Of a stretch of 64,000 nt of DNA, positions 31,086-51,617 are shown piece by piece. The notes under the pieces were generated by a model, which made no database searches, was not told the DNA's origin, and worked only from the letters and a program-made list of their open reading frames with translations. Numbering within the stretch: position 1 is the stretch's first letter; every line of letters begins with the position of its first letter. The stretch comes from Wenyingzhuangia fucanilytica (GTDB lineage Bacteria > Bacteroidota > Bacteroidia > Flavobacteriales > Flavobacteriaceae), in NCBI RefSeq assembly GCF_001697185.1, contig NZ_CP014224.1:2650501-2714500 (forward strand), written 5' to 3'. The translations under genes were made by a program, and so were the position numbers.

Positions 31086-31120
31086 GTCCTTTTACCAATC
31101 ATCCTTTACAATTATTATTG
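31086..31120 (+). promoter_or_regulatory. Phage late promoter P1
   Basis: GTCCTTTTA (31086-31094), 18 bp, TATTATTG (31113-31120). The ATG of the first late gene is at 31125, 5 nt after the box. Confidence 0.75.
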
Positions 31121-31124
31121 TAAT

Positions 31125-31571
31125 ATGGGATTAGACACTAGAAATACAGCCTTATTTAACAACATCAAAACGGTGTATTTACAATCTGTAAAAAACGGAC
31201 TGTTAGGTAATTTTCAGCAAGTATATGCTACCTATACAAAAACAGTATTTACAAGTCAACCTGCTAACACAGATAACGGAATTGTATACAATACAAAGTT
31301 ACAAGTTCTGTATCCTGGTTTATCATCAACAGATTTTCAAGCCTTTCATAGTTTATTGTTAGATGAATATTTTGTAATCATTCTAACAGCTACCAATGAT
31401 TATTATGAAATATGTAGTAGGCAAAACCCACTAGAACTAAGCGTAGATTTTGATATTAACAAAGGAACTACCCTTGTGTTTTCTGGAAACCAAATATTAC
31501 CACCCAACAACATTGCAATGTTAGATAATGAATCTATTGATCTGGCTTGCTCACTAAACATTAATTTATAA
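31125..31571 (+). CDS. Late structural protein, 148 residues, unknown
   Basis: MGLDTRNTALFNNIKTVYLQ...; beta-rich, no recognised family. It is the first gene of late unit 1 and its stop overlaps the fibre gene's ATG (TAATG), so the two proteins may assemble together, for example as fibre adaptor. The start lies only 5 nt after the promoter box. Confidence 0.6.
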   Translation: MGLDTRNTALFNNIKTVYLQSVKNGLLGNFQQVYATYTKTVFTSQPANTDNGIVYNTKLQVLYPGLSSTDFQAFHSLLLDEYFVIILTATNDYYEICSRQNPLELSVDFDINKGTTLVFSGNQILPPNNIAMLDNESIDLACSLNINL

Positions 31572-34492
31572 TGAGCTTAAAGAAACTTTTATTCGAACAA
31601 AAAGAAGGAATCGTAGAAAAAAAGGTTAGAAAGAACCAAGTTTGGGATGATGATTTAAACGATATTCTTAACAACTACAACACTTCACTTGTAGAAATTT
31701 TAAGTAAGTTAACTGGGCAAACTTTTACTGAAGACGAAAAAGAAATAGACCTTAGTACTTTGCCTACTACTGCAAAAAACTTTTTAGGATCTATTATTGA
31801 GTTAAAGTTATATTTAGATGATAAAATATACATTTTAACTTCAGCTATTGAAAACCTTAATACAGGAGAAACTGCCAAATATTTTGATACCAGAGCCGAT
31901 GCTACTGCGTATTGGACTTTGTTAGATGGAGCAGGAAATACTCCTGCAGAAACTTTTAAATTCCAAATTGGGGATACGGAATATCACAGATTTGATGCTT
32001 CTGTAACTCCAGAGAGAACAACTAAGGTTGGGGATGTTATTCAGCTAACAGATGATGCAAATGATGTAGATCAAGATAAGGGAGCGAAGGTTAGTATTGT
32101 AAAAGAAAACAGGAGTAGAATAGAGTTAATAAATGATGCTACTACTATTACAACTGGTAAAAACTTACTAGATTCTCGACCTAGCAATATGATTGATGGT
32201 TATAGAATTAAGGTTGCTTTAACAGGTTATGACCCTATTGGGGCAGCTACATTGATTGCGACTAAACCTATTCGTTTGGAATATGGGGAAACCTATTTTA
32301 TTAGTGGTGATGGTTTGGCTCACGAAACCCCTAGAGCGTTGTTTTTAGAGAGTCCTGTAGTTACTAATGGTATTGTTTCTGGAAGTGCTGTAAGTGCTAA
32401 TATGACAGAGATAACAGGAGGTTATACATTTACGGCTAATGATGCCGATAGGTTATGGTATTCTGTCGATGTTAATACTGTGTCGAATGGTAGTAATATT
32501 ATAGACGGAGTGATTCAGCTTGAAAAAACAGCGATAACAGGTTATGAAGCGTATTATAATGTACTATCAACAGATACTAAGAGTAATAAAGAAATAGTTT
32601 CTGAACTTGATTCTGTATCTGAAAAAATAGTGACAGGTAAGAATTTGTTTGATTCGAGAGAAACAAATATGAAAACAGGTTTTAGAGTAAATGCCGCATC
32701 TACTCAATTCGACCCAAACTCAGGAACTAATTTAGTAGCAGTTAAGCCTATAAAATTAGAGTATGGCAAAACATATACTATTAGCGGTAATGGTTTAGCA
32801 TGGGGAGCTTCTCCGCGTTCATTTATGGCAAGTAGTGAGTCTGCAACAACAGGTACAACTACTGTGTTTACACCTGTTACAAATGGATTTAGATTTCAAG
32901 TTACTGATGAAGATGAAGTATTTTTTACAATAGATTTAAATACTACTACAACAGGCGGAAATGATGTAAGTGGTGTTGTAATGCTAGAAGATGGTAGTGA
33001 AGTAACAGAATATGAAGATTATTATTTAAAATTCTCAACAGATGAAGAATTAGGAGTTGATGCTGTTGCTGTTAATAAGATTCACAACATTGTTCCTGTT
33101 ATTCAAGATACTCATAAGAAATTCCCTTTATTTTTTAATCACAATTTAAAACGTGATAAAAATATAAATGTAGTATTACTAGGAGATAGCATAACTGCAA
33201 GAGATTATCACACTACTTATTTTAGTGAGGAAGAACAAACAAAACGACCTCCTTTGATGGTTAGTAAAAATATAGGGTCTGCAATTTTTGACAAATTAAC
33301 GTGGCAAAATGTTGAGTATTCGAGATGGGATAGGTCTAGCGAGTTTACAGAATCAGCAGCTACATTTGTAACTGTGGAATCAAATAATCTACCATCACAA
33401 GGAATATCACAAGGTAATGGTTCGGGTGGCGATGAGTGGTATGACATAGGAGATAGACCATCTGATACAAGAATTTATACAGGTACAGCATTAGCAAGTG
33501 TTGAATTTACTATACCTGAAGATTTCTATACTTTTAACTGGATTTATAGAACTGATTTAAAAGGTTGTGAAAATGTTACTGTTACAGTTGATGAGGGTAA
33601 CGGAAAAGTAGAAGTCTTTAATGGTTCTACATGGGTTGAAGCTAATGGTTATGTAATGTCGATGCGTCATCCTGGTGCTGTTGCGAATAGAATCAATACT
33701 AAATTTCAAGAGCGTTTAAGGTTTAGAACTTGTGATGTATATGATGGTGGTAGTTTTGATGAGCGTACAGGCTCTAAGACTATTACTTTAACTAAAAATA
33801 GTAGTGATAGTAGATTTTTGTATTGGGGGATTGAGAAATCAAAAGAGCCTTATATTGTTACAGTTATTAACTCTGCAAGAGGTGGAGAGAATATTGCAAG
33901 TATGCTTCCTGCAATGAATGATGATTTTTACGATTGGACGGAAACTCCTAATAGTTTTACTTTTTTAATTCACGAAATCTATTTTAATCAAGGTCAAAAT
34001 GTATATAATGATAGTAAGTCTATTAATGATTTCTTAAATGAATGGGATGATTATTTCTATTCAGAATCTAACTCTTATTCATTTAGAGAGAAAAGCAAGG
34101 TATCGACTATTCCATGGCAGAAATACGAAGCCTTACAATGGAATCCAAACTTTACAGTGGGTGGCGGTGGAATTTCAACCACAGAACCTTATGGTTTTAA
34201 GACTTGGGATAATGCTACTGACCATCAAAAAACTATACTTGATAACTTTATGTGTTATCTATATCAATATACAGACACGTATAGCGATGAAGTAGGTGTT
34301 GCAATGGTAAATACAACTAAAGCATTACTCAATGAAGCTAAGGCTAAGTTTGGGGATGAGTGGTATAAAGCATTTCAATCCACAGGAGTAAAAGGAGAAA
34401 GCTTCTTAAATGATATTACACACCCTAACGATTATGGAGTAAAAGTTATTTCTAGTTTTATTAATGCATGGTTCGAGAATAGCTTTATTTAA
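31571..34492 (+). CDS. Tail fibre / receptor-binding protein with SGNH-hydrolase domain
   Basis: A 973-residue protein. An N-terminal helical region (to about 110) is followed by a virion-type linker. Two tandem copies of a beta module lie at about 190-330 and 353-490, each starting TGKNL(L/F)DSR and containing (K)PI(R/K)LEYG(E/K)TY. A C-terminal SGNH/GDSL esterase domain has the nucleophile in G538-D-S540 and the D948-I-T-H951 pair near the end. Such fibres bind and deacetylate surface glycans. The opening MSLKKLLFEQKEGIVEKKVR is polar, as expected for virion attachment. Confidence 0.78.
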   Translation: MSLKKLLFEQKEGIVEKKVRKNQVWDDDLNDILNNYNTSLVEILSKLTGQTFTEDEKEIDLSTLPTTAKNFLGSIIELKLYLDDKIYILTSAIENLNTGETAKYFDTRADATAYWTLLDGAGNTPAETFKFQIGDTEYHRFDASVTPERTTKVGDVIQLTDDANDVDQDKGAKVSIVKENRSRIELINDATTITTGKNLLDSRPSNMIDGYRIKVALTGYDPIGAATLIATKPIRLEYGETYFISGDGLAHETPRALFLESPVVTNGIVSGSAVSANMTEITGGYTFTANDADRLWYSVDVNTVSNGSNIIDGVIQLEKTAITGYEAYYNVLSTDTKSNKEIVSELDSVSEKIVTGKNLFDSRETNMKTGFRVNAASTQFDPNSGTNLVAVKPIKLEYGKTYTISGNGLAWGASPRSFMASSESATTGTTTVFTPVTNGFRFQVTDEDEVFFTIDLNTTTTGGNDVSGVVMLEDGSEVTEYEDYYLKFSTDEELGVDAVAVNKIHNIVPVIQDTHKKFPLFFNHNLKRDKNINVVLLGDSITARDYHTTYFSEEEQTKRPPLMVSKNIGSAIFDKLTWQNVEYSRWDRSSEFTESAATFVTVESNNLPSQGISQGNGSGGDEWYDIGDRPSDTRIYTGTALASVEFTIPEDFYTFNWIYRTDLKGCENVTVTVDEGNGKVEVFNGSTWVEANGYVMSMRHPGAVANRINTKFQERLRFRTCDVYDGGSFDERTGSKTITLTKNSSDSRFLYWGIEKSKEPYIVTVINSARGGENIASMLPAMNDDFYDWTETPNSFTFLIHEIYFNQGQNVYNDSKSINDFLNEWDDYFYSESNSYSFREKSKVSTIPWQKYEALQWNPNFTVGGGGISTTEPYGFKTWDNATDHQKTILDNFMCYLYQYTDTYSDEVGVAMVNTTKALLNEAKAKFGDEWYKAFQSTGVKGESFLNDITHPNDYGVKVISSFINAWFENSFI

Positions 34493-34500
34493 AAATAACA

Positions 34501-34529
34501 AACCCCTAGTCTTTAATTAGGCTAGGGTT
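34501..34529 (+). terminator. Weak hairpin after the tail-fibre gene
   Basis: AACCCCTAG (34501-34509) pairs with CTAGGGTT (34522-34529) with one bulge. No T-run follows, so it probably only attenuates expression of the next gene. Confidence 0.45.
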
Positions 34530-34543
34530 AATATCAAAATCAC

Positions 34544-35164: not shown

Positions 35165-35248
35165 CGTAAGAAACTAAAACAGACAACAATGTTAAAAACA
35201 CATGATATTTGTTAAAACCAAACCTTACCAAATAACAAGGTAAAACGC

Positions 35249-35256
35249 TATATTTG
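35249..35256 (+). promoter_or_regulatory. Host-type promoter -7 box
   Basis: TATATTTG, 7 nt from its last base to the ATG at 35263. Unlike the late promoters it has no GTCCTTTT element, so the gene may be expressed in the lysogen. Confidence 0.5.
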
Positions 35257-35262
35257 AGTACT

Positions 35263-35793
35263 ATGAATTTAGAGAAAACAAGAATAACTCCTTTTCCTTT
35301 TCCAGATCATTTGGCTCAATTTTTAATGAGTCAGTTAAATACACCTGTGGAATATATAAATGGTGTACAAACCAAAGCTTTACATATTAAAAACGATAGA
35401 ATTTTATGCAAAACTATTATTCGTTCTTTAAAAAAAAGTGACAGGCCAATTGTAGTAAAAGAAGGAATTACCCTTTACGTTTCTTTTTCTAAACACGTTA
35501 GAAGACACGACAAAGCATGTGAGGAAGCTAGATTTACAGATATGTATTTGCCTCCAGAAGCAATTACTTATATTACAGAATTTTTTGAAACTTTATTTCG
35601 CTTATGTTTGGTAAACTATATTGATGGAGCCAAATTTGGAAATGATTACAAAAAAGGAAAACATCACAAGAGCATAAATGAGTTTATGAAAAAATACAAA
35701 CTCCAAAACTCTCCAACTGCTTTTGAAAAATACAATCAAATGTATAAAAGAGCAAAAAGAACCTCTAAATCCATTGTAAACACTACGTTTTAA
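35263..35793 (+). CDS. Prophage protein, 176 residues, unknown
   Basis: The ATG at 35263 (MNLEKTRITPFPFPDHLAQF) is preferred over an in-frame TTG inside the promoter box. Basic protein with a helical C-terminal half (NDYKKGKHHKSINEFMKKYKLQ). I do not recognise the family. A host-type promoter and its own terminator make it an independent unit, as for a lysogenic cargo gene, between two late units. Confidence 0.6.
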   Translation: MNLEKTRITPFPFPDHLAQFLMSQLNTPVEYINGVQTKALHIKNDRILCKTIIRSLKKSDRPIVVKEGITLYVSFSKHVRRHDKACEEARFTDMYLPPEAITYITEFFETLFRLCLVNYIDGAKFGNDYKKGKHHKSINEFMKKYKLQNSPTAFEKYNQMYKRAKRTSKSIVNTTF

Positions 35794-35866
35794 TAAAAAA
35801 GAGACTAACGCGACCCTAAATTTCAGCCAAAATCCTACAAAATTTACTAATAAACACAAATTTTCT

Positions 35867-35895
35867 AAAAGCCTTATAAATAAAGGCTTTTTTTT
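35867..35895 (+). terminator. Terminator directly upstream of late promoter P2
   Basis: AAAAGCCTT (35867-35875) pairs with AAGGCTTTT (35883-35891), then T's. The next bases begin the P2 promoter (GTCC at 35898). Confidence 0.85.
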
Positions 35896-35897
35896 GT

Positions 35898-35932
35898 GTC
35901 CTTTTGTAAAACCCCCTTAGCAATTATCATTG
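35898..35932 (+). promoter_or_regulatory. Phage late promoter P2
   Basis: GTCCTTTTG (35898-35906), 18 bp, TATCATTG (35925-35932). It is followed by TAGTATA, where P4 and P5 have TAGTATG; here the ATG is 20 nt downstream at 35952. Confidence 0.8.
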
Positions 35933-35951
35933 TAGTATATAAAATACTGCA

Positions 35952-36851
35952 ATGTCAGAAAATAAAAACTTATTAGCCTTTACAGAGTGGAAATGGGCGG
36001 TTTCTCCAGAAGCCTTTTTGGCCTTTAAACCCTATTTCAATTTTTTAATTAATGGAAGTGCAGCTGTTTCAGATATCCATCAGAAAATAGAAGCTCGTTA
36101 TGTTAGATCTGTTATAGATGGTTCTGGAAACGAACGTGGTTATTCTGCAGAAGAACCTGTGGCCGATGCTATTGGAGTAGTAAGAATTACAGGACCTATT
36201 ATTAAATATGGAAACTGGTATATGTGGGGAGCAGATGAATTGGTGGCCATGCTACACGCTTTTGATAAAGACCCTAACATTAGAGCTATTGTAATTGTAA
36301 TAGATTCTGGAGGAGGAATGGTTAGTGCTGCAGCACCTTTTAAAGACTTTTATGCACAAAAAACCAAACCTGTAATTACTATTGGAGATACTTGTGCCTC
36401 TTTAGCTGTTTGGTTGCGTTGTGGTGCCGATTACAATTTTGCGGACAATGATATTTCTGCACAATTTGGAAGCATTGGTATTGTAGCCAATTTTATGTCT
36501 TTTAAAAAATACTACGAAGAATTAGGTATTAAAGAACATGTTATTTACTCCACCCATTCCGAAGACAAAAACAAAGGTTTTGATATGGCTATGGAAGGTA
36601 AGTATGATTTAATTAAGGAAGAACACTTAGATCCGTTGGCTTTAAAATTTAGAGCACACGTAACAGCAAGTTTACCAAACCTAAAAACAGACACTCCAGG
36701 TTTATTAACAGGTAAAATGTTTTATGCAGATGATTCTTTAGATATAGGATTGGTACACGAAATAGGAAACTTAAACCAAGCCATTAATAAAGCACATGAT
36801 TTAGCAGACCAATACGAAGCCAAACAAATACAGAACCGATTTAATAACTAA
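35952..36851 (+). CDS. Prohead protease, S49 (SppA-like) family
   Basis: A 299-residue ClpP-fold serine protease that matures the head by cleaving scaffold. Visible: IGVVRITGPIIKYG, AIVIVIDSGGGMVSAA (SGG oxyanion region), ITIGDTCASLAVWLRCGAD with the nucleophile in CASLA, and FGSIGIVANFMSFKKYYEELGI with the general-base lysine. It directly precedes the scaffold-capsid fusion (11 bp), the usual arrangement. Confidence 0.85.
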   Translation: MSENKNLLAFTEWKWAVSPEAFLAFKPYFNFLINGSAAVSDIHQKIEARYVRSVIDGSGNERGYSAEEPVADAIGVVRITGPIIKYGNWYMWGADELVAMLHAFDKDPNIRAIVIVIDSGGGMVSAAAPFKDFYAQKTKPVITIGDTCASLAVWLRCGADYNFADNDISAQFGSIGIVANFMSFKKYYEELGIKEHVIYSTHSEDKNKGFDMAMEGKYDLIKEEHLDPLALKFRAHVTASLPNLKTDTPGLLTGKMFYADDSLDIGLVHEIGNLNQAINKAHDLADQYEAKQIQNRFNN

Positions 36852-40151: not shown

Positions 40152-40979
40152 ATGAAACAATTTAAAACAGCTCCATTACCATTTATGGGGCAAAAAAGAG
40201 GATTTATAAAAGCTTTTTCAAGAGCATTAGACGAATATCCCAAGAACGCTATATATGTGGATTTATTCGGAGGAAGTGGTTTGTTATCTCATACTGTTAA
40301 GCGTAAATATCCCAATGCAAGTGTGGTTTATAATGATTTTGATAATTATAGAAGACGTTTAGAAAACGTACCTAAAACCAATTTATTAATAGCAAAACTA
40401 AGAACTTTAACCAAGCATTTAGAACGCAAAAAAAAGATTCCATCATACGATAGAATTAAAATTTTAAAAGTAATTGAAGCCTTTGAACAAAAACATGGAT
40501 TTGTAGATTACATTACCATTAGTGGTTGTTTGTTGTTTAGTATGAATTATGTTGAAAGCTTTGAAAAACTAAAAGCCCAAACTCTTTACAATAGAGTTCG
40601 ATTATCTAATTATAATGCAGATGAATATTTGGATGGGTTAGATATTGTTTGCGAAGATTACAAAAGACTTTTTCATAGATACAAAAACATGACTAATGTG
40701 GTTTTTTTAATAGATCCTCCTTACCTATCTACAGAAGTTGGAACGTATAAAAACTATTGGAAACTTACTGATTATTTAGATGTGTTAGATACACTAAGCA
40801 ATACTAGTTACTTCTATTTTACATCTAACAAAAGTAATATTGTGGAACTATGCGAGTGGATAGAAAAAAAGAGTAAATCTGCTTCTCCTTTTAACGGAGC
40901 TGTTATTCAAGAAACCACCAACCATATGAACTATAATTCTAAATATACAGATATTATGATTTATAAAAAGATGGATTGA
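40152..40979 (+). CDS. dam: DNA adenine-N6 methyltransferase, Dam/D12 class
   Basis: 275 residues. Motif X PFMGQKRGF (10-18), AdoMet motif I VDLFGGSGLL (37-46), catalytic DPPYLS near 189-194, and FYFTSNKS are all present. It methylates adenine in a short site (probably GATC-like, not provable here), which can protect phage DNA or alter gene expression. No restriction enzyme accompanies it, so it is an orphan. It follows a structured leader and has no late promoter. Confidence 0.85.
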   Translation: MKQFKTAPLPFMGQKRGFIKAFSRALDEYPKNAIYVDLFGGSGLLSHTVKRKYPNASVVYNDFDNYRRRLENVPKTNLLIAKLRTLTKHLERKKKIPSYDRIKILKVIEAFEQKHGFVDYITISGCLLFSMNYVESFEKLKAQTLYNRVRLSNYNADEYLDGLDIVCEDYKRLFHRYKNMTNVVFLIDPPYLSTEVGTYKNYWKLTDYLDVLDTLSNTSYFYFTSNKSNIVELCEWIEKKSKSASPFNGAVIQETTNHMNYNSKYTDIMIYKKMD

Positions 40980-41023: not shown

Positions 41024-41031
41024 TATATTTG
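41024..41031 (+). promoter_or_regulatory. Host-type promoter -7 box
   Basis: TATATTTG, 18 nt before the ATG of the membrane-protein gene at 41050. No late-promoter element is present. Confidence 0.5.
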
Positions 41032-41049: not shown

Positions 41050-41646
41050 ATGGATATTGATTGGTATAAGTTTTTTTATAACGACTACATGGTTGAGTTG
41101 TTTGGTGGGTTAATTTTTTCTTGTTTTACACTTTTTATGATTTGGTTTTTAAGACCTAAAATGGGTATTGCACCAAATATTGCATCAAGACCAATCTCAG
41201 ATTTCAACCATGCTGAAGAATTAAAAAACAAACTAGATAATGTTTATTCTATAAAAATAATGAACAACTCTAGGATATTTAAAGTTTTAGATTTAAAATT
41301 TGAAATGTCTATTTTAATACCAGAGTCTTCACCTAAAGGGCAAAATTACGGTATTAAAAAAATTAATTTAAAAAGTGATAGAATGTGGAGTTTAGAAAGA
41401 AAACCACTATTTACTAAAGGTAAAACCGAAAAAGCTAACTATGCATTAATAATCACTGTAGACCATTCACATGATTTAATTGAATTGTTAAAAAAATATG
41501 GAGGTAGTTATTATGAATTAAAGGTAATTGCAAAAAACAATTTTAGTGGTATTACTACGATAAAGACAGAACCCTTTACAGACCCTACATCTATAGAAAA
41601 AGGACGTTATTATTTTGGAAATACTTTCGAAATAAAAAAATGTTAA
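41050..41646 (+). CDS. Single-span membrane protein, lysogenic cargo candidate
   Basis: 198 residues: one N-terminal helix (YMVELFGGLIFSCFTLFMIWFL) and a cytoplasmic beta-rich domain (VYSIKIMNNSRIFKVLDLKFEMSILIP, SHDLIELLKKYGGSYYELKVIAKNNFSG). No named family recognised. Its own promoter and place in an insert between late units suggest expression in the lysogen, for example superinfection exclusion or defence, which is inference. Confidence 0.55.
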   Translation: MDIDWYKFFYNDYMVELFGGLIFSCFTLFMIWFLRPKMGIAPNIASRPISDFNHAEELKNKLDNVYSIKIMNNSRIFKVLDLKFEMSILIPESSPKGQNYGIKKINLKSDRMWSLERKPLFTKGKTEKANYALIITVDHSHDLIELLKKYGGSYYELKVIAKNNFSGITTIKTEPFTDPTSIEKGRYYFGNTFEIKKC

Positions 41647-41978: not shown

Positions 41979-42013
41979 GTCCTTTTCTACATTATAGGTT
42001 GGTTTTATATTCG
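41979..42013 (+). promoter_or_regulatory. Phage late promoter P3
   Basis: GTCCTTTTC (41979-41987), 18 bp, TATATTCG (42006-42013). The -7 box departs from the others (TTCG). The ATG is at 42036, so this mRNA has a short leader. Confidence 0.65.
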
Positions 42014-42035: not shown

Positions 42036-42977
42036 ATGGAAGCTAAAATTATTAAATACTTTAAAACGGACAGAACCTTTGCAGGTGGTAAAGCATTGTA
42101 CAGCCAATGTGCAAATAAAAATCGTTCTATAGAGCGTTCTTTAAACACCATGACAGAAACACCTGCTAACATAGAAATGTTACAGTATCAACTTTGGAAA
42201 CTTACTGGTAAAAATGATAGAGTACGTTTGGCTATGATTAACAAGCCTGTACAAGCAGAAGTAAAAGTGGTTAAAATGCCAACTCCTTCAGAAGCCTTTT
42301 TTACCAAACTGCAAACGGCACAAACTCCAGAAGAAGCAAGTGCTATGTTAGCAGACTGCCCTTTAGAAAAAGAGGAAGCTTTAAAATTAATTGAGGAACG
42401 AATTAAGGCTCTTATTCCTGATGAAATTATTGCACGTGATGAATCTATCCAAAACAAAAGATCGGATTTGTTAAAAGCATTAGAAGAAAGCGATGAATTA
42501 ACCAAACAATCTATTAAGCTAAGAGAACAATTTCCATTTTTAAAAGGAAAAAATTATCCAGATGCTTATAAAATTTTAACTGCAGATTTAGTTACTGCTT
42601 ATGCAGAATACAAAGAAAATCACAAAGATTTATTTAATGTTACTACAGAAGCAGAACGTTTTGAGGTTGCTAAAAGCGTGGTAGATCCTTACAAGGAAAA
42701 TAAATTGATTTGGGAAGAATTAGAACACTTCCAAGCACACGGAAAACCATTAGGTAAGCATCCTATTTTTAAGGAACTAGCTTATAAAGAAGAATTAAGA
42801 AATAAATCTGCAGATGATTTATCTAAAAGATTAACTAATGTAATTGGTTACATAAACAGAAACAAAGCCAAAGCAGAAGCTTCTACAGGTAAAAAGCAAC
42901 AAGGTTACTTAGATAAAGTTGAGCAATACACAGCAGAAAAAGCATTTATAGAAGCTTTACTAAAAAACAGAAAGTAA
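42036..42977 (+). CDS. Phage protein of the terminase operon, 313 residues, helical
   Basis: Strongly helical and charged (TPANIEMLQYQLWKLTGKND, LEESDELTKQSIKLREQFPF, LSKRLTNVIGYINRNKAKAE). No recognised family. First gene of the terminase unit and 1 bp before the next gene, so a packaging or head-assembly role is inferred from position. Confidence 0.6.
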   Translation: MEAKIIKYFKTDRTFAGGKALYSQCANKNRSIERSLNTMTETPANIEMLQYQLWKLTGKNDRVRLAMINKPVQAEVKVVKMPTPSEAFFTKLQTAQTPEEASAMLADCPLEKEEALKLIEERIKALIPDEIIARDESIQNKRSDLLKALEESDELTKQSIKLREQFPFLKGKNYPDAYKILTADLVTAYAEYKENHKDLFNVTTEAERFEVAKSVVDPYKENKLIWEELEHFQAHGKPLGKHPIFKELAYKEELRNKSADDLSKRLTNVIGYINRNKAKAEASTGKKQQGYLDKVEQYTAEKAFIEALLKNRK

Positions 42978-42978
42978 C

Positions 42979-43302
42979 ATGGCTAATTTACCAGAACTTA
43001 AAATTAATATCAGTGAAGAAGACATTCGAGAAGTTACTCGTTTGTCTTCTTTAAATTATGGTCCTGGAGAAATAGCTGTTTGTTTAGGTTATCCTAAAAA
43101 AACTTTTAAGCGTTTGGCATTAGATCCTAATACAGAAATAGGAAAAGCTTATTTAAAAGGTCGCTTAGATTCTAAAATTGATGCAGATGATTCTTTGTAT
43201 AAAGAAATGCTAAAAGGAAATGTTACTGCTACCCAAACCCACATTAAACGTTCTGAAACTTTAGACTTTGAGAACGCAAAAGCACAAATATTCGATTTAT
43301 AA
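42979..43302 (+). CDS. HTH protein, terminase-small-subunit-like
   Basis: 107 residues. SEEDIREVTRLSSLNYGPGEIAVCLGYPKKTFKRLALDPNTEIGKAYLKG is a classic terminase-small type HTH followed by a helical hairpin. It probably recognises phage DNA for packaging. Its stop overlaps the next ATG (TAATG). Confidence 0.62.
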   Translation: MANLPELKINISEEDIREVTRLSSLNYGPGEIAVCLGYPKKTFKRLALDPNTEIGKAYLKGRLDSKIDADDSLYKEMLKGNVTATQTHIKRSETLDFENAKAQIFDL

Positions 43303-43925
43303 TGAGAAAGGATTCCAAACTAGAAGGTTTACACCACGAAATTTTAATGGATTGGATTACCTCCGAAAAAACGGAAAGTTTAGATCCAGAAATGGTTGAG
43401 TATTTAACCCAACTAGACAAATGCCGTGGTTGGCATTATTCTCTTAAAAACGAAAACTACATTATTAAGGCTTTAATGGCCGAATATCCAAAACTTACCA
43501 GAACTGCAGCCAAAACTAGATATGTAAATGCAATGAATTATTTCTATGCAGATACAGAAATTAAACAGGAAGCATATATAAACATGTATGCTCAAGATTT
43601 AGATAGAATTAAAGAATTAATCATTCTTACAGCTAAAGCACCAGAACAGGCGGTATTAGCTGTAAAACCAATTAAAGAAGCTGTTTTGTTACGTGGTTTA
43701 TTAAAAGATAAGAAAGAAGCGTTACCTGCTCATTTGTTTGAGCCACAACAGCCTATTATAGTTATGGATTCTAACTTATTAAGTATTCCTAAAGTAGATA
43801 GAAATGTGTTAGCTGCCCAAATAGACAGTTTTCAAAATGTAAGCGTAAAAGATAAAGACCGCCTTAAAAGAGAAAGTGGTTACACTCCTTTTGAAGTAGA
43901 AAAAGCCATAGAAACAGATGAGTAG
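43302..43925 (+). CDS. Terminase-operon protein, 207 residues, possible second small subunit
   Basis: MRKDSKLEGLHHEILMDWIT...; AEYPKLTRTAAKTRYVNAMNYFYADTEI looks like an HTH plus helices. Overlaps both neighbours (1 bp before, 8 bp with the large terminase). The pair of small DNA-binding-like proteins before TerL is common in Bacteroidota phages. Which is the true small subunit is not clear. Confidence 0.55.
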   Translation: MRKDSKLEGLHHEILMDWITSEKTESLDPEMVEYLTQLDKCRGWHYSLKNENYIIKALMAEYPKLTRTAAKTRYVNAMNYFYADTEIKQEAYINMYAQDLDRIKELIILTAKAPEQAVLAVKPIKEAVLLRGLLKDKKEALPAHLFEPQQPIIVMDSNLLSIPKVDRNVLAAQIDSFQNVSVKDKDRLKRESGYTPFEVEKAIETDE

Positions 43926-45633
43926 AAAAACCAAAATAAACACAGATGAAGATGGTTTAAAACTTCATTTTGCCAATGTATTATCTGTAGTTATAGAAAT
44001 GTTACAACCAAAATTTCTATACATTATAGTAGGTCGTGGAGGAGCAAAAACCACAGAAATACTATGTCGTAGGTTTATACGTGTGTTTACAGAAATGCCA
44101 GGTTGTTACGTAGCCTTGGTAGGAGATACTTACATGAACTTAATGAAAAACGTGGTGCCTTCTTTATTGGAAGGATTTGAGCGTATGGGTTTTGTAGAAG
44201 ATATTCATTATGTAGTAGGAAAAAGACCACCTTCTCATTTTAAAAAACCTTATAAAAATCCTCAGAACTGGAAACATACTATTACATGGCATACAGGTGC
44301 ACATGTAAAATTAGTTTCTATGGATAGACCATCTACAGGAGCAGGAGATTCATATCAACATTTAGGAGGTGATGAAGTAAAGTATATTCCAGAAAAGAAA
44401 ATAAACAAATTAACCCCTGCAATTCGTGGAGAACACGTTCGTTTTCAAAACTCTCCATTATACAGAGGTAGAAGCTTTACTACAGATATGCCAAACCCAA
44501 ACCACCGTGAACACGATTGGATTAAAGGCATGAAAAAGAACATGAATAAGGAGCAGTTAAAGTTAATGTGGGAATGTGCTAATGTTTTAAATGAAATTAG
44601 AATAGAACACTACCATGCAACCAAACAAAACAATCCAAAAGCCATTAGAAACAAAAAACGTTTACTAGATCGTTGGCAGGCTTCTTTTGATAAAATAAGA
44701 AAAGATTCTACTTTTTATTATGAAGGTTCTTCTTATGTAAATGCAGATGTTTTAACAGAATCATTTTTTAAGGACCTACTAGATACTATGGATTTTAGAG
44801 AAGTAAAAACCTCTGTATTATCTATAGAGCCAAAACTAGAAAAAGGGCAAATGTTCTACCCTAATTTAACAGCTAAGAACTTTTATAAAGACAGTTATAA
44901 TTGGAGTTTTTATGACAAACAAGAACTTACTTCTGGAGGAATTATTCAAACAAGTTTAGGTTTAAAACACATACAACATAATCAGCCATTAGAAGTAGGT
45001 TTAGATCCAGGAGGAAATATGTGTTCCTTGGCTATTGGTCAGTCAGAAGGGAATGAGGTTTACAGAGTTTTAAAATTCATGTATGTATTATCTCCAGAAT
45101 ATTTACCAGAGCTTGGTGCAAAATTTAGAACATACTTTGCTAATCATCAAAAAAAAGAAGTACTAGCTTGGTGTGATAGAAAAGCAAACGCATATCAAAA
45201 CGTTGGAGAAGATGAAGCTTCAAAATTTAAAAAAGCAATTGAATTTGATGCTGATGGAATTGCTACAGATTGGACTTGTACAATAATGACAAGGCATCAA
45301 GGTACTATTTACCACCAACAAGAATATGAATTAATGCTTTATATGTGTAACGGAACCAATGGTTTGCCATTGCTAAAATTACCTGATAATGATGAAGGGA
45401 AAGAATTAAAATCATCTTTAGAAAAAGCACAAACAATAATTAAAGAAAATAAAGAGGGTAAAAAAACCATTCATAAATTAAAAACTTCAGAAAAACTTGC
45501 TTTACACCGTTTGCCATTAGAATCTACCAATCCATCAGATGCGTTAAAATATTTGGTATGTAAGGAAGAACACTTAAATAAAATAAAAGGTGTTTTTTCT
45601 AAACCATTTTCTAATGCTTTAGACTTAGGTTAA
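43918..45633 (+). CDS. terL: Terminase large subunit
   Basis: 571 residues. ATPase: Walker A IVGRGGAKTTE near 38-47 and Walker B YQHLGGDEVKYI near 149, inside CYVALVGDTYMNLMKNVVPS-type motor sequence. C-terminal nuclease: EVGLDPGGNMCSLAIGQ near 360 starts an RNase-H-like fold, with EVLAWCDRKANAY and IATDWTC giving further acids. It packages DNA into proheads. It overlaps the preceding gene by 8 bp and ends in a terminator. Confidence 0.88.
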   Translation: MSRKTKINTDEDGLKLHFANVLSVVIEMLQPKFLYIIVGRGGAKTTEILCRRFIRVFTEMPGCYVALVGDTYMNLMKNVVPSLLEGFERMGFVEDIHYVVGKRPPSHFKKPYKNPQNWKHTITWHTGAHVKLVSMDRPSTGAGDSYQHLGGDEVKYIPEKKINKLTPAIRGEHVRFQNSPLYRGRSFTTDMPNPNHREHDWIKGMKKNMNKEQLKLMWECANVLNEIRIEHYHATKQNNPKAIRNKKRLLDRWQASFDKIRKDSTFYYEGSSYVNADVLTESFFKDLLDTMDFREVKTSVLSIEPKLEKGQMFYPNLTAKNFYKDSYNWSFYDKQELTSGGIIQTSLGLKHIQHNQPLEVGLDPGGNMCSLAIGQSEGNEVYRVLKFMYVLSPEYLPELGAKFRTYFANHQKKEVLAWCDRKANAYQNVGEDEASKFKKAIEFDADGIATDWTCTIMTRHQGTIYHQQEYELMLYMCNGTNGLPLLKLPDNDEGKELKSSLEKAQTIIKENKEGKKTIHKLKTSEKLALHRLPLESTNPSDALKYLVCKEEHLNKIKGVFSKPFSNALDLG

Positions 45634-45708: not shown

Positions 45709-45958
45709 GCTTCAAAAACATAAGTAAATCTTATAAGAGACTGTAAATCAACAAACAAACCCTTTTGTTTTTTTCAATCCAAGGCAGATTGTAACAAAGT
45801 TGACCGCCCCGCTCAGAGCTGTATATGCATGTGCACGCTTGTTTTTTTCTGAGATATATGACGAGCCTAATGTTTACAGGGTTTTGTGCTTTTTTACAAG
45901 CCAATGCTACCATATTTTAAAATGGGGAGCTTTTTTATAAAACAGGGTATATTTTACT
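45709..45958. other. Unexplained control region before late promoter P4
   Basis: No convincing ORF. A locally GC-rich patch (GACCGCCCCGCTCAGAGCTG, near 45801-45820) stands out against the AT-rich surroundings. TTTTGTGCTTTT at 45882-45893 repeats 12 bp of the motif before P1. A cos/pac site next to terL, or a regulatory RNA, would fit. Confidence 0.35.
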
Positions 45959-45993
45959 GTCCTTTTGTTAGCTCCCCCCCTGCACTATACTTG
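45959..45993 (+). promoter_or_regulatory. Phage late promoter P4
   Basis: GTCCTTTTG (45959-45967), 18 bp, TATACTTG (45986-45993), TAGT, then ATG at 45998. It is alike P5 from the promoter box through the first Met-Asp codons. Confidence 0.8.
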
Positions 45994-45997
45994 TAGT

Positions 45998-46267
45998 ATG
46001 GATGCACAAGTAATACAAAGAGGAGAAGCTATAAGACAAATGAAATTGCTCACCAAACAAGGTGTTCCTTTTTCATTTTCTTTTTTTAGTTACGATGAAA
46101 CCAGAGGAATAAGCAGAGGAGAAATAAAAGTTCCTGCTGCCCTTATTAGAAGCAAGAGCCAAACCAATAGTGTTTTATTGGAATATGTAGATGTTGTGCA
46201 ACAACAGAATAAGAAATGCTACGAGTGTTTACTAATGACCTTTGAAGGTAAAAACATATATATATAA
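45998..46267 (+). CDS. Late protein upstream of portal, 89 residues
   Basis: The ATG at 45998 (MDAQVIQRGEAIRQMKLLTK) is set by the promoter: a longer in-frame start at 45965 lies inside P4. Beta-rich (PFSFSFFSYDETRGISRGEIKV). Its stop overlaps the portal ATG. No family recognised; position suggests a head or packaging accessory. Confidence 0.65.
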   Translation: MDAQVIQRGEAIRQMKLLTKQGVPFSFSFFSYDETRGISRGEIKVPAALIRSKSQTNSVLLEYVDVVQQQNKKCYECLLMTFEGKNIYI

Positions 46268-47652
46268 TGGAGAATCAAGTAATAGACTTAACCCCTTCTC
46301 ATTCCTTAATTACCCAAGGAAACAATGCAGGTTTGTTTGAAGTAATGAGCCGTGAAAACAAACAAGAAACCACCAATGATTCTTCTATTAAAGACTATAT
46401 GTCGTGGTCTGAAAACACTATAGATGTAGATGGTTTTTGTGTAATTCCTTATGGTAAAGACAATGCTTTGGATAAAGAAATACAGGAGGTTGTTTTTGGA
46501 AATAACATTGCTCCTAGATCATTAACCAAAAAGGTTTCTTTATTGTTTGGCCAAGGAGCAGAACTATATAAAACAACAAGGCTTAAAGGTAAAGTAATAC
46601 GAGAATATGTAGAACATACAGAAATACAGAAATGGTTAGATCAAAATGATTATAAAGATATTATGCTTTGTTCTGCTGTAGATTTTTACTACACAGAAGG
46701 CTGTTTTTTTAAGGTAAGAATATCAAAAAATAATAGATCTAACAAAGGAGCTTCTATTACCAAAATTCCCACTATTGAATATTTAGACTTAACAAAATGC
46801 CGTTTGGCTTATAAACGTGGTGCTTCAGACAAAAAGCCAACCCATGTATTGGTTGGAGACTGGAACAGTAGTTACACAAACAAGTATGTTGTATATCCTT
46901 TGTTTGATGCTAAAGAACCTACCAAACACAAAACAAGCATATACTATTCTAAATTTAAAAGCTTTGGTATTGATGATTATGCTATTCCAGATTTATTAGG
47001 AACATTACCTTGGATTAAAAGAGCAAGTGCTATTCCTTTTATTTTAGAAGCCTTAACCAACAACTCATTAAACCTAAAGTTTCATATAAAATCACCGCAA
47101 AAATATTGGGATAGTATAGAAGATCAGTTAAAAAAGAAAGCTGAACTAGAAAACAAACCTTACAATCCAAAAGACTTAAAAGATTTTAAGAATAAAGTAT
47201 TTAAGGAAATTACTGATGTATTATCTGGAGTAGATAATGTTGGTAAATTTTGGCACTCTGTTAAATCTATAGATGCTAATGGTGTAAAAGTTTTAACCCA
47301 CGATTGGGAAATTGTTCCTATTGAGCAAAAAACAAAAGATTTTGTAACTGCTCAGTTAGATATTTCTAAACATGCAGCTTTTTCTACTACAGCAGGTTTA
47401 GGATTACACAATGCATTAGCAGGAGTTGGAGCCGATGGTAAATCTGATAGTGGTTCAGAACAAATTTACGCTTACAAAAATCACATTCTAACAGAAACTC
47501 CTTTACCAGAAATGGTTATTACCAAAATTTGGAATATAGCCATTAAACACAATTGGCCAGAAGCCAACTTAAAAGTAGGTTTCTACCACCATATGCCAGA
47601 GAAAGAAGAAGATTTAACAGCAAGTAACAGACATAACGCACAAGGATCATGA
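46267..47652 (+). CDS. Phage portal protein
   Basis: 461 residues. The protein has the portal layout: an N-terminal arm, an alpha/beta body (GKDNALDKEIQEVVFGNNIA, LTKKVSLLFGQGAELYKT), a long helical stem region with KYWDSIEDQLKKKAELENK, and a closing QKTKDFVTAQLDISKHAAFSTTAGLGL...SGSEQIYAYKNHILTETPLPEMV. The portal dodecamer is the DNA entry channel and head-tail joint. It comes after, not before, the protease and capsid genes, which is an unusual order. It overlaps both neighbours. Confidence 0.75.
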   Translation: MENQVIDLTPSHSLITQGNNAGLFEVMSRENKQETTNDSSIKDYMSWSENTIDVDGFCVIPYGKDNALDKEIQEVVFGNNIAPRSLTKKVSLLFGQGAELYKTTRLKGKVIREYVEHTEIQKWLDQNDYKDIMLCSAVDFYYTEGCFFKVRISKNNRSNKGASITKIPTIEYLDLTKCRLAYKRGASDKKPTHVLVGDWNSSYTNKYVVYPLFDAKEPTKHKTSIYYSKFKSFGIDDYAIPDLLGTLPWIKRASAIPFILEALTNNSLNLKFHIKSPQKYWDSIEDQLKKKAELENKPYNPKDLKDFKNKVFKEITDVLSGVDNVGKFWHSVKSIDANGVKVLTHDWEIVPIEQKTKDFVTAQLDISKHAAFSTTAGLGLHNALAGVGADGKSDSGSEQIYAYKNHILTETPLPEMVITKIWNIAIKHNWPEANLKVGFYHHMPEKEEDLTASNRHNAQGS

Positions 47653-48620: not shown

Positions 48621-49519
48621 ATACAATAGAGTTTCCTAAAATAAACCTACAAGTAGATTTACCAGAGTATATTGATGAATTTACGTACCACCAATATTTA
48701 AAATATTGTGAGTTAATGGTCATGTTTCAAAACAAAGAAATTTCTTTTTTTGAACTTAAAGTATTGTTATTATACCATTGTTTAAATATGGTGGTTGATG
48801 ATAAAACCAAACTATCAGAAGCAGAATGCCAAGAAAAAAACTATAACATTTATGTAGCTACTACTTTGTTAGATAATTTATTTAACATAGAAACAGATGG
48901 TAATAAAATTAGAGTTACTCACAGCTTGTTATTTGTAGATAACAAAATAAAAAGCATTACCCATAACAATAAGATTTATATAGGGCCAGATGATTTATTT
49001 TCTAACATCACTTTTATAGAACATATTGAAGCTACATATGCATTTTCTCAATATGCACAAACCAAAGATGAATATTGGTTAAACACTTTGGTTGCTATTC
49101 TTTACAGACCACAAAAACCAGATACTGAAGAAAACAGAATATCAGGTTTTGATGGTGATAAAAGACTACCCTTTTATCCTGCTACTGTAGAAGCCAGAAC
49201 AGAAGAATTTAAAACCATACCATTCCATGTAAAATATGGTGTGTTTTTATGGTTTTGGGCTGTAGAAGAATTTATTGCCACTGCTACAGAATTAGATGTA
49301 AAAGGCCATAAATGTGATATGACTGTAATATTTAATGCAAAAGCTAATAAACAAAAAAGTATTGGTATGCCTGGTGTCCTTTTCTCATTGGCAGAAACAC
49401 GCGTATTTGGTAACAGAAAAGAAACAGAGCAAGAACCTTATTTAAACATATTGCTCAGATTGTATCAAAACCACATAGATATAGAAAACGCAAAAGCCAA
49501 AAACAATGTTAAAAATTAA
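48617..49519 (+). CDS. Late phage protein, 300 residues, unknown
   Basis: MNTIEFPKINLQVDLPEYID...; mixed alpha/beta with an aromatic-rich PFHVKYGVFLWFWAVEEFIA segment. It overlaps both neighbours (4 and 14 bp), so it belongs to the assembly unit. No recognised domain; a tail-assembly role is inferred from position. Confidence 0.55.
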   Translation: MNTIEFPKINLQVDLPEYIDEFTYHQYLKYCELMVMFQNKEISFFELKVLLLYHCLNMVVDDKTKLSEAECQEKNYNIYVATTLLDNLFNIETDGNKIRVTHSLLFVDNKIKSITHNNKIYIGPDDLFSNITFIEHIEATYAFSQYAQTKDEYWLNTLVAILYRPQKPDTEENRISGFDGDKRLPFYPATVEARTEEFKTIPFHVKYGVFLWFWAVEEFIATATELDVKGHKCDMTVIFNAKANKQKSIGMPGVLFSLAETRVFGNRKETEQEPYLNILLRLYQNHIDIENAKAKNNVKN

Positions 49520-49958
49520 CGAGTTATCTAGTTTTATAGAGTTTGTAAAAACTAAAATTGAATTTAGCGATGATTTATTTATTGTTGATGATAAGGATTT
49601 TAGTAAAAAATCAAGAGATTTTAAGACTACAAAAATTGGTTTATTGGTGGTAATTCCTAGTTCTTCTCCAAACAGTAAAGATGTAGATCAGATTGAATTT
49701 AAAGATTTATGTAGTTTTTATTTTCTTAAAAAGCAGACTGATAATGATGGAAACAAAGCTTTTTTAGAAAAACTTTCCTTGTGCCAAAACAAAGCCATAG
49801 AATTTATTGAGTTAATTCAACAAATACAACGTAACGACTTTGGTTGTATTGATGGTTTTGAACAAATAGAATTTCCAACATTAGACGTTAACCCAGTATC
49901 AAACTTTAATGGTTATTGTGGTTATTCCTTAGATTTTTCACTAATCAATCCTATATAA
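49506..49958 (+). CDS. Late phage protein, 150 residues, tail-terminator-like position
   Basis: MLKINELSSFIEFVKTKIEF...; alpha/beta start, then PSSSPNSKDVDQIEFKDLCSF and CGYSLDFSLINPI end. Size and place after the connectors suit a tail completion/terminator protein, but the sequence shows no firm family. Overlaps the preceding gene by 14 bp. Confidence 0.5.
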   Translation: MLKINELSSFIEFVKTKIEFSDDLFIVDDKDFSKKSRDFKTTKIGLLVVIPSSSPNSKDVDQIEFKDLCSFYFLKKQTDNDGNKAFLEKLSLCQNKAIEFIELIQQIQRNDFGCIDGFEQIEFPTLDVNPVSNFNGYCGYSLDFSLINPI

Positions 49959-49959
49959 A

Positions 49960-50451
49960 ATGGCACACGACAACATTACACTACAAAGAATAGAAAAAGC
50001 ACATCCTAAAATTAGAGAACAATTAAAAGCAGACTATTTAGAATGTAATAATAATATTTTAGGTAAAGGAGTTAGGTTGCGTTTTTCTTGCGTAGATAGA
50101 ACTCCAGAAGAACAAAATAAATTATATGCACAAGGTAGAACTTTACCAGGTGATATAGTTACTTGGGTAAAAGCTTGGTTTTCTTATCACCAATACGGAT
50201 TAGCTTTTGACATTGTGTTGTTATATGATAACGATGGAAATGGAACATTTGAAGAAGCTTCATGGGATCTATTAAAAGATGGTGATGGTGATAAAATTGC
50301 CGATTGGGAAGAATGTATTTCATTTTTTAAAGCAAAAGGCTATGAAACTATACCAAATGACAAACCCCACTTTCAAAAAACCTTTGGTTATAAATGCAAA
50401 GAATTAATAAGGCTAAAACGTGACCGTGATGGTTATGTAATTTTTAAATAA
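49960..50451 (+). CDS. Endolysin: M15 peptidoglycan L,D/D,D-peptidase (VanY/CwlK-like)
   Basis: 163 residues. Zinc ligands are H77 and D84 in SYHQYGLAFDIV and H137 in KPHFQ; RFSCVDRTPEEQNKLYAQGR is the usual N-terminal block. It cuts the stem peptide of peptidoglycan at lysis. Between the zinc motifs lie two calcium-type loops, D90-N-D-G-N-G-T-F-E and D107-G-D-G-D-K-I-A-D-W-E-E118, known also from related Bacteroidota M15 proteins. No signal peptide, so a holin is needed. Confidence 0.87.
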   Translation: MAHDNITLQRIEKAHPKIREQLKADYLECNNNILGKGVRLRFSCVDRTPEEQNKLYAQGRTLPGDIVTWVKAWFSYHQYGLAFDIVLLYDNDGNGTFEEASWDLLKDGDGDKIADWEECISFFKAKGYETIPNDKPHFQKTFGYKCKELIRLKRDRDGYVIFK

Positions 50452-50509
50452 AAGTGAAATAAAAACTAAACCCAAATCCATTAGACTAATACAAAAACCA
50501 TCTATACAA

Positions 50510-51145
50510 ATGAAAAACGCAATCCTAATCCTAACAACCTTGCTACTATTAGTAAGTTGTAAAATCACCAAAGAGACAACCAGTAAAAGTCTCCAGGAAC
50601 AAAAAGAATTTTTAAAAGATACTGCTACTACCAACTACAAATCTGTAGATACTGTTAAAGTGGTACAAAATAATTCTAAAACTGTAAACCAAAAAGAATC
50701 TAAAACGGTTACAGAAACCACAACTCCACCATCTAAAATAAAAGGAGCTGTAGACAATACACAACCTATAGATCAAACCATAGATACCGGTACTTTACTA
50801 GTAAACCTAAAAACCATTAATGGTAAACTACATTATACTATAGAAGAATTACAAGCTACCAAACAAACCAAAGAAGTGTTAGAAACCTCTTACCAAAGTT
50901 TGCAAACAGAATACCAAGAATACATACAGAAAACCCAACAAAAAGAAACCGAGTACCAGGCTAAAATAAAAGAACTCACTACTAAAATACATATCGATAC
51001 TACAAGTAAAAAAACCACCACACAATGGACTGCTTATACTTATGTGTTTTTTATACTTACCTGTGTTTTTGCCTTTGTACTTATTGGTGTTGGTTATAAA
51101 AAAGTAAAAGATTCTTTTTTACTATGGAAAAATAAACGGTGGTAA
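50510..51145 (+). CDS. Predicted unimolecular spanin (lipoprotein plus C-terminal membrane helix)
   Basis: 211 residues. The N-terminus is a lipoprotein signal with lipobox LLVSC (C17), so the mature end can sit in the outer membrane. Residues about 18-170 are periplasmic, Thr/Lys/Gln-rich with a coiled coil (IEELQATKQTKEVLETSYQS, QKTQQKETEYQAKIKELTTK). A transmembrane helix AYTYVFFILTCVFAFVLIGVGY near 173-194 anchors the C-terminus in the inner membrane, followed by a short basic tail. This double anchoring is the layout of the T1 gp11-type u-spanin that fuses the two membranes. It directly follows the endolysin. Confidence 0.78.
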   Translation: MKNAILILTTLLLLVSCKITKETTSKSLQEQKEFLKDTATTNYKSVDTVKVVQNNSKTVNQKESKTVTETTTPPSKIKGAVDNTQPIDQTIDTGTLLVNLKTINGKLHYTIEELQATKQTKEVLETSYQSLQTEYQEYIQKTQQKETEYQAKIKELTTKIHIDTTSKKTTTQWTAYTYVFFILTCVFAFVLIGVGYKKVKDSFLLWKNKRW

Positions 51146-51166
51146 TTTACTTATAAGTTAACCATA

Positions 51167-51199
51167 AAAAAACCTCACTTAAATTAAGTGAGGTTTTTT
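51167..51199. terminator. Perfect bidirectional terminator after the spanin gene
   Basis: A 15-bp perfect stem, AAAAAACCTCACTTA (51167-51181)/TAAGTGAGGTTTTTT (51185-51199), around AAT. It works in both directions. Confidence 0.9.
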
Positions 51200-51311
51200 A
51201 GTTTCTTAAATAAAGAACCAATTTTACCAATTGCCATATAGCTTCACATATAATATAAATTATAATGAGTTTACTTATATCTTTTAGAATATGTATGAAT
51301 TTAATTTTCAT
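51198..51311 (-). CDS. Micro-ORF, 37 residues, amphipathic (minus strand)
   Basis: The ATG at 51311 gives MKIKFIHILKDISKLIIIYI then ICEAIWQLVKLVLYLRN. Its TAA falls in the tail of the bidirectional terminator, as expected for a gene converging on the spanin. An overlapping plus-strand frame (51265-51366, 33 residues, also hydrophobic) competes for the same DNA. At most one is likely real. Confidence 0.35.
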   Translation of the reverse strand: MKIKFIHILKDISKLIIIYIICEAIWQLVKLVLYLRN

Positions 51312-51368
51312 TGTTATTGCAAGTTATAAGTTTTTTATATTTATTATTCATTTAAAACAAAATTAACT

Positions 51369-51536
51369 ATGGGAGAATTTACAGCATTTGGAATTGTGAT
51401 TTTTATTGCAATAATTGTTTTTTTAATTTTTAGAGATTTAATGTTATGGTATTGGAAAGTTCCTAAAATTTTAAAAAACCAAGAAAAAACAAACGAACTC
51501 CTTCAACAAATTTTAGATAAAGAAAAATCTTTGTAA
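51369..51536 (+). CDS. Small membrane protein, 55 residues, holin/antiholin candidate
   Basis: MGEFTAFGIVIFIAIIVFLI then FRDLMLWYWKVPKILKNQEK and a helical tail TNELLQQILDKEKSL. One helix spans about residues 7-22. It stands between the spanin and the tape-measure unit with its own terminator 17 bp later, and TATATTTA near 51337 could be a promoter. Lysis-cassette position makes a holin or antiholin possible; many Bacteroidota have similar tiny membrane proteins of unknown role. Confidence 0.5.
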   Translation: MGEFTAFGIVIFIAIIVFLIFRDLMLWYWKVPKILKNQEKTNELLQQILDKEKSL

Positions 51537-51552
51537 TCTTAAAATCTATTTA

Positions 51553-51580
51553 AAACCACTCCTAATAGAGTGGTTTTTTT
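51553..51580 (+). terminator. Terminator directly upstream of late promoter P5
   Basis: AAACCACTC (51553-51561) pairs with GAGTGGTTT (51568-51576), then T's, then the P5 element at 51583. Near-copy of the terminator at 41784. Confidence 0.88.
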
Positions 51581-51582
51581 GT

Positions 51583-51617
51583 GTCCTTTTGTTTGCTCCG
51601 TTCCTACACTATAATTG
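51583..51617 (+). promoter_or_regulatory. Phage late promoter P5
   Basis: GTCCTTTTG (51583-51591), 18 bp, TATAATTG (51610-51617), TAGT, then ATG at 51622. Confidence 0.8.

Follow-up and report, generated by a model that had tools for sequence, protein, structure and literature searches.

The late promoters of phages P2 and Mu depend on an activator (Ogr and C, respectively), a small phage protein that is made before the late genes are expressed and serves several dispersed promoters. The middle promoters of phage T4 carry a MotA box near -30 that replaces the -35 element, with the host -10 element being retained and MotA acting together with AsiA in sigma appropriation (PMC6755090). In the phylum Bacteroidota, the sigma-A box of Flavobacterium psychrophilum is TAnnTTTG, located at -12 to -5 (PMC9723704). 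Here we analyze a 64,000-nt stretch of the Wenyingzhuangia fucanilytica genome (NZ_CP014224.1, positions 2,650,501 to 2,714,500; the window), in which a first-pass annotation had noted a GTCCTTTT box in front of five late phage genes. Our sequence comparisons suggest that these five elements probably drive the late genes of a Duneviridae-like prophage in an activator-dependent manner. A phage protein would replace recognition of the -33 element, and the likeliest activator is the product of the gene at 35263-35793.

Results

The five boxes had been placed at defined positions (Table 1), with a fixed spacer separating them from a downstream -7 box. All five positions are correct, every site obeys GTCCTTTT-N19-TATNNT[TC]G, and the distance from GTCCTTTT to TATNNTYG is exactly 19 nt at 5/5 sites. 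GTCCTTTT alone is present in nine copies on both strands of the window (shuffle mean 4.2), five of which are followed by TATNNT[TC]G at N19; the other spacings between 10 and 30 give 0/9. The binomial probability for five of nine at a single spacing is ~2e-14, calculated for a pattern that was picked post hoc. The full pattern GTCCTTTT-N19-TATNNTYG did not occur in 100 shuffles of the window. In the 3,427,057 bases of the host genome the five sites are the sole matches and all lie inside the prophage, in agreement with the proposed phage specificity of the element and at odds with a random distribution over the genome. The 98 other genomes of the order contain 16 matches in 15 genomes, versus 28 for a reversed-pattern control. 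A scan of the window for Escherichia coli-type promoters (59 found, 72.8 expected) is uninformative here.

We compared the window with related phages. Its genes for portal, large terminase, S49 head protease and tape measure have counterparts, in matching order, in Cellulophaga phage Ingeline and the Flavobacterium phages laban6-1 and 6H (all Duneviridae), and the portal, adaptor, capsid/protease and tape-measure homologs are likewise ordered as in Ingeline, laban and 6H. More distant homologs of the structural genes are found in Bacteroides phage BT-TP2 and Porphyromonas phage 032a (Pg032a). In a portal tree, the window groups with Ingeline-like phages, on a long branch. Gene content and gene order mark the prophage as Duneviridae-like.

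A motif search in related Flavobacteriaceae phages, which the first-pass annotation had proposed, recovered the same element at orthologous late genes, on the same strand and with the same spacing. Ingeline has GTCCTTTTAA at the same five genes as the window (5 sites), and GTCCTTT is found at orthologous genes in prophages of four of the six genomes fetched (G303, G310, G141 and G188); the promoter 1 gene, for example, has orthologs with the same promoter in Ingeline and in all four of these prophages. All 27 scan matches share one spacing, with ±2 bases permitted, and one of them (in G162) is probably a chance match. Late genes are preceded by five GTCCTT promoters in BT-TP2 and by four in Pg032a. 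At the corresponding place, laban and G018 have GTCACAA or GTCACAG, 6H has GTCTTAAA, and G162 has GTAACAT at one clear site. The terminase-unit promoter carries the same -7 box, TATATTCG, at 41979-42013 and in Ingeline (L033:38833), and this retained departure from TTG may set a different promoter strength.

We extended the search to 144 portal-bearing loci from GTDB genomes and IMG/VR, with near-duplicates and three of the prophages mentioned above included. Unanchored 7-mer discovery per locus proved too noisy and was replaced by GTC-anchored counts near the starts of open reading frames (ORFs). In the 144 loci, 138 of 244 forward GTCCTTT copies have T[AT]NNNT[TC]G downstream at k=19 (57) or k=20 (81), compared with a mean of 1.5 at 23 other spacings and with 3/136 for GTCCTTT on the opposite strand. 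Two other boxes show spacing peaks of their own: k=20 for GTCACAA (10 sites) and k=19 for GTCTTAA (16 sites). Counting identical stretches once and requiring the -7 pattern, we obtained 178 distinct GTCCTT sites (125 with k=20, 53 with k=19). The portal tree is a quick one, for which 1 of 156 portals was dropped beforehand for length and in which some rows have no assigned box. GTCCTT is located on nearly all box-assigned rows of its Bacteroidales and Ingeline-like branches, and two flavobacterial clades have GTCACA or GTCTTA in place of GTCCTT, the GTCTTA phages forming a group nested inside the single GTCACA clade. A chance origin of the five-site pattern is ruled out by the genome-wide, strand and spacing controls.

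A blind scan of IMG/VR for GTCCTTTT-N19-TANNNTTG-N4-ATG returned 110 stretches, partly from records already known and including one nearly identical to the window prophage. Among the 80 of these that were listed, 38 carry this type of portal (31) or the candidate activator (7) within the stretch, as do 19 of the 25 listed stretches with at least two sites on one strand. Polaribacter phage Leef (Helgolandviridae) and phage Mea-Yong924-1 (L380, MZ447863.1), recorded from Microcystis, represent a fair test because they were picked by protein similarity and not by their promoters. Leef contains six GTCCTTTT sites just 5' of genes, four with TTG at the right distance, and Mea-Yong924-1 contains five GTCCTT sites 5' of genes, a candidate activator and a LuxR gene. 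The recorded host Microcystis may be wrong for the latter phage, and a Bacteroidota companion may be the true host. The phage group studied here is also carried by contigs assigned to Oceanicaulis, Kurthia, Clostridia, Clostridium and Clostridiales genomes (L064, L071, L082, L112 and L118), which are possibly misbinned. The promoter element is not confined to the window phage but recurs in Bacteroides, Porphyromonas and Polaribacter phages. Each of the five window sites consists of a GTCCTTTT box and a host-type -7 box at fixed distance, an arrangement conserved at late genes of many Bacteroidota phages.

We next consider how the two boxes relate to host promoters. The -7 box reads TAnnnTTG at four of the five window sites and TTCG at the remaining one. 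As the phage -7 box matches the published host sigma-A box (-12 to -5), GTCCTTTT would be positioned at about -39 to -32. The tRNA-Leu promoter in the window (TTTG-18-TATATTTG) had been said to have the same spacing, and this is correct. The shared -7 box and spacing, together with TTTTG at -33 in three of the five sites, would fit plain host sigma-A promoters, in which GTCC is an extended -33 element, no activator is involved, and silence in the lysogen results from repression, with the box perhaps being an operator. We regard this as quite improbable, for the host genome has no copy of the box outside the five sites; a looser form (GTCCTT-N21-TANNNTTG) detects four of these and adds just one other place in the genome, below the 12 matches of its control. 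In addition, the sister clades have GTCACAA or GTCTTAA at this position without TTTG, and both Mea-Yong924-1 and several Leef sites keep the GTC box with a -7 box whose TA is degenerate. The sites had been interpreted as a host -33/-7 pair to which GTCC is added as a possible activator site. A host -7 box with an upstream element resembling an activator site, found at the same genes, on the same strand and at the same spacing across phages, is in line with our data. The absence of TTTG from this place in related clades makes it preferable, however, to view GTCC as belonging to a GTCCTTT box that takes the place of the -33 element, rather than as added to an intact TTTG.

The predicted +1 position is an A in 72% (k=20) and 60% (k=19) of the 178 distinct sites, the +1 base being unconstrained in the collection. 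The first ATG lies exactly on the predicted +1 in 39/178 sites, the commonest value, and a second cluster is found at 15-19 nt. In the control, an ATG coincides with +1 for 83 of 3247 TANNNTTG boxes without GTCCTT in the same 144 loci (2.6%). ATGs were counted without a gene-by-gene check. For comparison, 5.5% leaderless mRNAs and a median 5' untranslated region (UTR) of 24 nt are given for F. psychrophilum (PMC9723704), and ~3.7% of 5' UTRs are shorter than 10 nt in Bacteroides thetaiotaomicron (PMC7366714). In the window, an ATG falls on the predicted +1 at 31125, 45998 and 51622, and these three mRNAs are therefore predicted to be leaderless. The genes after promoters 4 and 5 probably start at these ATGs (45998 and 51622), and the longer ORFs beginning with TTG are disfavored.

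If the box is an activator site, the likeliest activator appears to be the product of 35263-35793. Members of its family are present in 14/14 closely examined phages and prophages. They comprise Ingeline gp41, laban gp42, 6H gp40 and proteins of all six fetched prophages, and a second group with BT-TP2 gp8 and Porphyromonas 032a 10115-10585, which joins the first by hhalign (95.7% probability, E 9.9e-9, 156 columns). Of 50 portal-bearing viral records, many of which are fragments, 40 contain a family member; the 50 are the longer ones, hand-picked from 80 viral loci. tblastn with the window protein against phage records found nothing, and a closer family member detected 23 records. phrog_21888 is matched by 29/48 family members, and by the window protein weakly (E 3e-4). 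A viral library yielded one match with E<0.001 (3.1e-4), an uncharacterised 157-aa protein of Polaribacter phage Leef_1. This protein is presumably Leef gp39, which has 157 aa and whose reading frame is matched by the family profile. The gp39 gene is located two genes before the head protease, and the Mea-Yong924-1 member follows a primase gene. Flanking sequence was sufficient for 51 copies of the family gene. Two of these have a GTC box within 75 nt on the 5' side, and 27 have a late promoter within 200 nt on the 3' side (other strand, 1; shuffles, mean 1.5). The gene thus tends to sit just before a late promoter and rarely under one.

An AlphaFold model of the 35263 protein (pLDDT, predicted local distance difference test, 89.7) shows an N-terminal part of alpha/beta type and a long helix; its two C-terminal helices span residues 133-144 and 151-166. 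The C-terminal pair may form a putative helix-turn-helix with a recognition helix at ~151-166; it was read from the predicted secondary structure, because no confident fold match emerged from comparison with the PDB. The weak PDB matches include a few LuxR-type response regulators, and three family members scanned against Pfam gave no match. Arg163 is invariant in all 60 aligned family proteins. In phages with at least two assigned sites, a lysine four residues before Arg163 is present in 29/31 GTCC-type phages versus 1/12 others, and an arginine five residues before it in 12/12 GTCACA/GTCTTA phages versus 2/31 of the GTCC type. The residue preceding Arg163 is Tyr in 8/8 GTCACA phages and Asp or Asn in 4/4 GTCTTA phages, two of which are near-identical. 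These counts omit 17 of the 60 phages (4 without an assigned box, 13 with a single site or a tie) and include both members of near-identical pairs such as L163 and L035; the box labels of Leef and Mea-Yong924-1 were assigned by hand.

Several observations weigh against this assignment. The Porphyromonas and BT-TP2 members join the family by profile comparison only, and a single-profile search returns Pg032a at E 0.018 and does not list BT-TP2. The best match in the PDB fold search has an E of 0.88. A TAnnnTTG box is found within 75 nt upstream in just 16/51 family genes, the window included (shuffles 6.3), and the other 35 have no evident promoter within this distance. The window protein (Gln) and that of Leef (Arg) lack the lysine four residues before Arg163, and the Leef -7 box is missing or weak at 2/6 sites. 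About two evolutionary switches on the portal tree underlie the association between helix and box, and near-identical phages are counted in it; the residue changes therefore agree with the activator model and do not represent independent proof of it.

The box could instead be the site of the LuxR/GerE-type protein 22646-23278, with the 35263 protein having another function. This protein is a recognizable DNA-binding regulator in the early operon, it has homologs in 12/14 examined phages (ten flavobacterial ones, Leef and Mea-Yong924-1), and its helix-turn-helix also differs between the GTCC and the GTCACA/GTCTTA clades, the last two points again speaking against the 35263 protein. It is not, however, found wherever the box is: hmmsearch at E 0.1 does not detect it in BT-TP2 and Pg032a, which have five and four GTCCTT promoters, respectively, and it occurs in 22/50 viral records versus 40/50 for the 35263 family, with fragments limiting both counts. 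We thus consider it rather unlikely that the LuxR-type protein reads the box; it may start the regulatory cascade. The accessible text of the Ingeline paper does not contain the word promoter, and it notes the LuxR genes and links them to host density (PMC8776804). In PHROG, 22646 has one weak match, with a family labelled sigma factor, which could point to a phage-encoded sigma factor, or an otherwise remodelled polymerase, reading both boxes. Yet this match spans the helix-turn-helix part only, the -7 box is of the host type, and the phage proteins scanned (most of the larger ones, not all) gave no other sigma-like match, which makes this explanation highly improbable.

The promoters had been proposed to start all late transcription units. 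This holds for the structural blocks but not for 35263 and 41050, which have TATATTTG boxes of their own. Besides the hairpins in Table 1, a third one with a T-run is located ~70 bp 5' of promoter 3. Between late units, a DNA methyltransferase-like gene (40152-40979) and the gene 41050-41646, with its host-type TATATTTG box at 41024, have a moron-like appearance. On the minus strand, opposite most phage genes, TATATTTTTGTTCGTACCTCTCAAAGTTGCCA occurs twice with a host-type -7 box, at 29760 and 30091 (~330 bp apart). A 25-bp direct repeat is shared by the 3' end of tRNA-Leu (60002-60026) and 20791-20815, and the integrase gene adjoins tRNA-Leu. The repeats are probably the attachment sites, and reading them as such gives a prophage of ~39.2 kb (~20,791-60,026). 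Slightly inward of either end, at 20892 and 59932, there is a second repeat of 23 bp, which is composed of two TTTGACACG copies and may provide integrase arm sites. At the prophage edge, 21053-21691 on the minus strand encodes a protein of 212 aa whose BRCT domain resembles that of NAD-dependent DNA ligases.

Table 1. Coordinates of promoters, genes and terminator-like hairpins of the prophage, numbered from the first base of the window
Feature	Coordinates	Strand	Remarks
LuxR/GerE-type early regulator	22646-23278	+	GerE domain PF00196, 4.7e-15
Late promoter 1	31086-31120	+	GTCCTTTT 31086-31093; -7 box TATTATTG 31113-31120; predicted +1 is A of ATG 31125
First gene of promoter 1 unit	31125-31571	+	Alignments with homologs of 5 relatives begin at residue 1, 2 or 6
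973-aa protein, probable tail fibre or tail region	31571-34492	+	Suggested by position
Host-type -7 box TATATTTG of candidate activator gene	35249-35256	+	Lacks a GTC box and a clear -33 TTTG
Candidate late activator, 176 aa	35263-35793	+	phrog_21888 family; predicted C-terminal helix pair
Terminator-like hairpin	35867-35891	+	T-run runs directly into late promoter 2
Late promoter 2	35898-35932	+	GTCCTTTT 35898-35905; TATCATTG 35925-35932; precedes S49 head maturation protease
S49-type head maturation protease	35952-36851	+	
Late promoter 3	41979-42013	+	GTCCTTTT 41979-41986; TATATTCG 42006-42013; precedes terminase unit
Terminase unit	42036-45633	+	g42036, g42979, g43302, large terminase
g42979, probably small terminase	42979	+	By position
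Large terminase	43918-45633	+	Homolog of BT-TP2 terminase
Late promoter 4	45959-45993	+	GTCCTTTT 45959-45966; TATACTTG 45986-45993; predicted +1 is A of ATG 45998
Small pre-portal gene	45998-46267	+	
Portal gene	46267-47652	+	
Terminator-like hairpin	51552-51577	+	Immediately 5' of late promoter 5
Late promoter 5	51583-51617	+	GTCCTTTT 51583-51590; TATAATTG 51610-51617; predicted +1 is A of ATG 51622
Pre-tape-measure gene	51622-51990	+	
Tape-measure gene	51990-55130	+	

Discussion

In the mechanism we propose, host RNA polymerase with its primary sigma factor would read the -7 box at -12 to -5, its contact at -33 being replaced by a phage activator that would bind GTCCTTT at about -39 to -33 and hold the polymerase there. 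Because the activator would have to hold the polymerase at the promoter, late genes would be switched on only after it has been made. The 35263-35793 product would suit this role by its location at the early/late boundary, its own host-type -7 box and its predicted C-terminal helix-turn-helix. Transcription would start on the A of the ATG in several units (three of five in the window), giving rise to leaderless mRNAs, and the terminators just 5' of promoters 2 and 5 would separate the transcription units. We further lean toward the broader view that the late genes of tailed Bacteroidota phages (Duneviridae, Helgolandviridae and Bacteroidales relatives) are controlled by one ancient activator-promoter pair, made up of a phrog_21888-type protein and a GTC box at -39. 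This pair would resemble sigma appropriation acting on the unusual sigma-A of this phylum, using a protein unrelated to MotA whose specificity was switched at least twice via the recognition helix.

A box that can be read by eye and a named candidate protein would make late genes findable in many gut and marine prophages, and the element is a potential inducible orthogonal promoter for Bacteroides and flavobacterial genetics. GTCCTT, GTCACA and GTCTTA form a natural series in which shifts in the DNA target of a protein can be studied, and the predicted leaderless starts offer a test bed for translation in a phylum without Shine-Dalgarno sequences. In the open-access literature, with subscription journals and preprints outside the scope of our search, we found no described late promoter or late activator of Bacteroidota phages, no promoter of such form, as had been surmised in the first-pass annotation, and no role for the 35263 family.

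The arrangement proposed here, a small activator made before the late genes are expressed and serving several dispersed late promoters, is like that of P2 Ogr and Mu C, but host phylum and promoter are different, and the 35263 family lacks invariant cysteines, unlike Ogr. phrog_21888, which is listed without a function, is here tied to a late promoter. The same logic as in T4 middle promoters is likely by analogy: the phage box, at about -39 to -32 when positioned by the published location of the -7 box, would be in place of the -35 element, with the host -7 element retained. The box is located a few bp further upstream than that of T4, however, it serves late rather than middle genes, and the phages are unrelated. 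No MotA-like fold was among the PDB matches of the 35263 protein, where a missing match does not prove a different fold. Compared with the primary-sigma promoters of Bacteroidota (-33 TTTG and -7 TAnnTTTG; PMC9723704 and PMC7366714), the phage promoters are alike in their -7 box, in its distance to the predicted start and in overall spacing. They differ in that a GTCCTTT, GTCACAA or GTCTTAA box replaces or overlaps the -33 element, in their near-invariant spacing and many predicted leaderless starts, and in being seen only in phages in our data.

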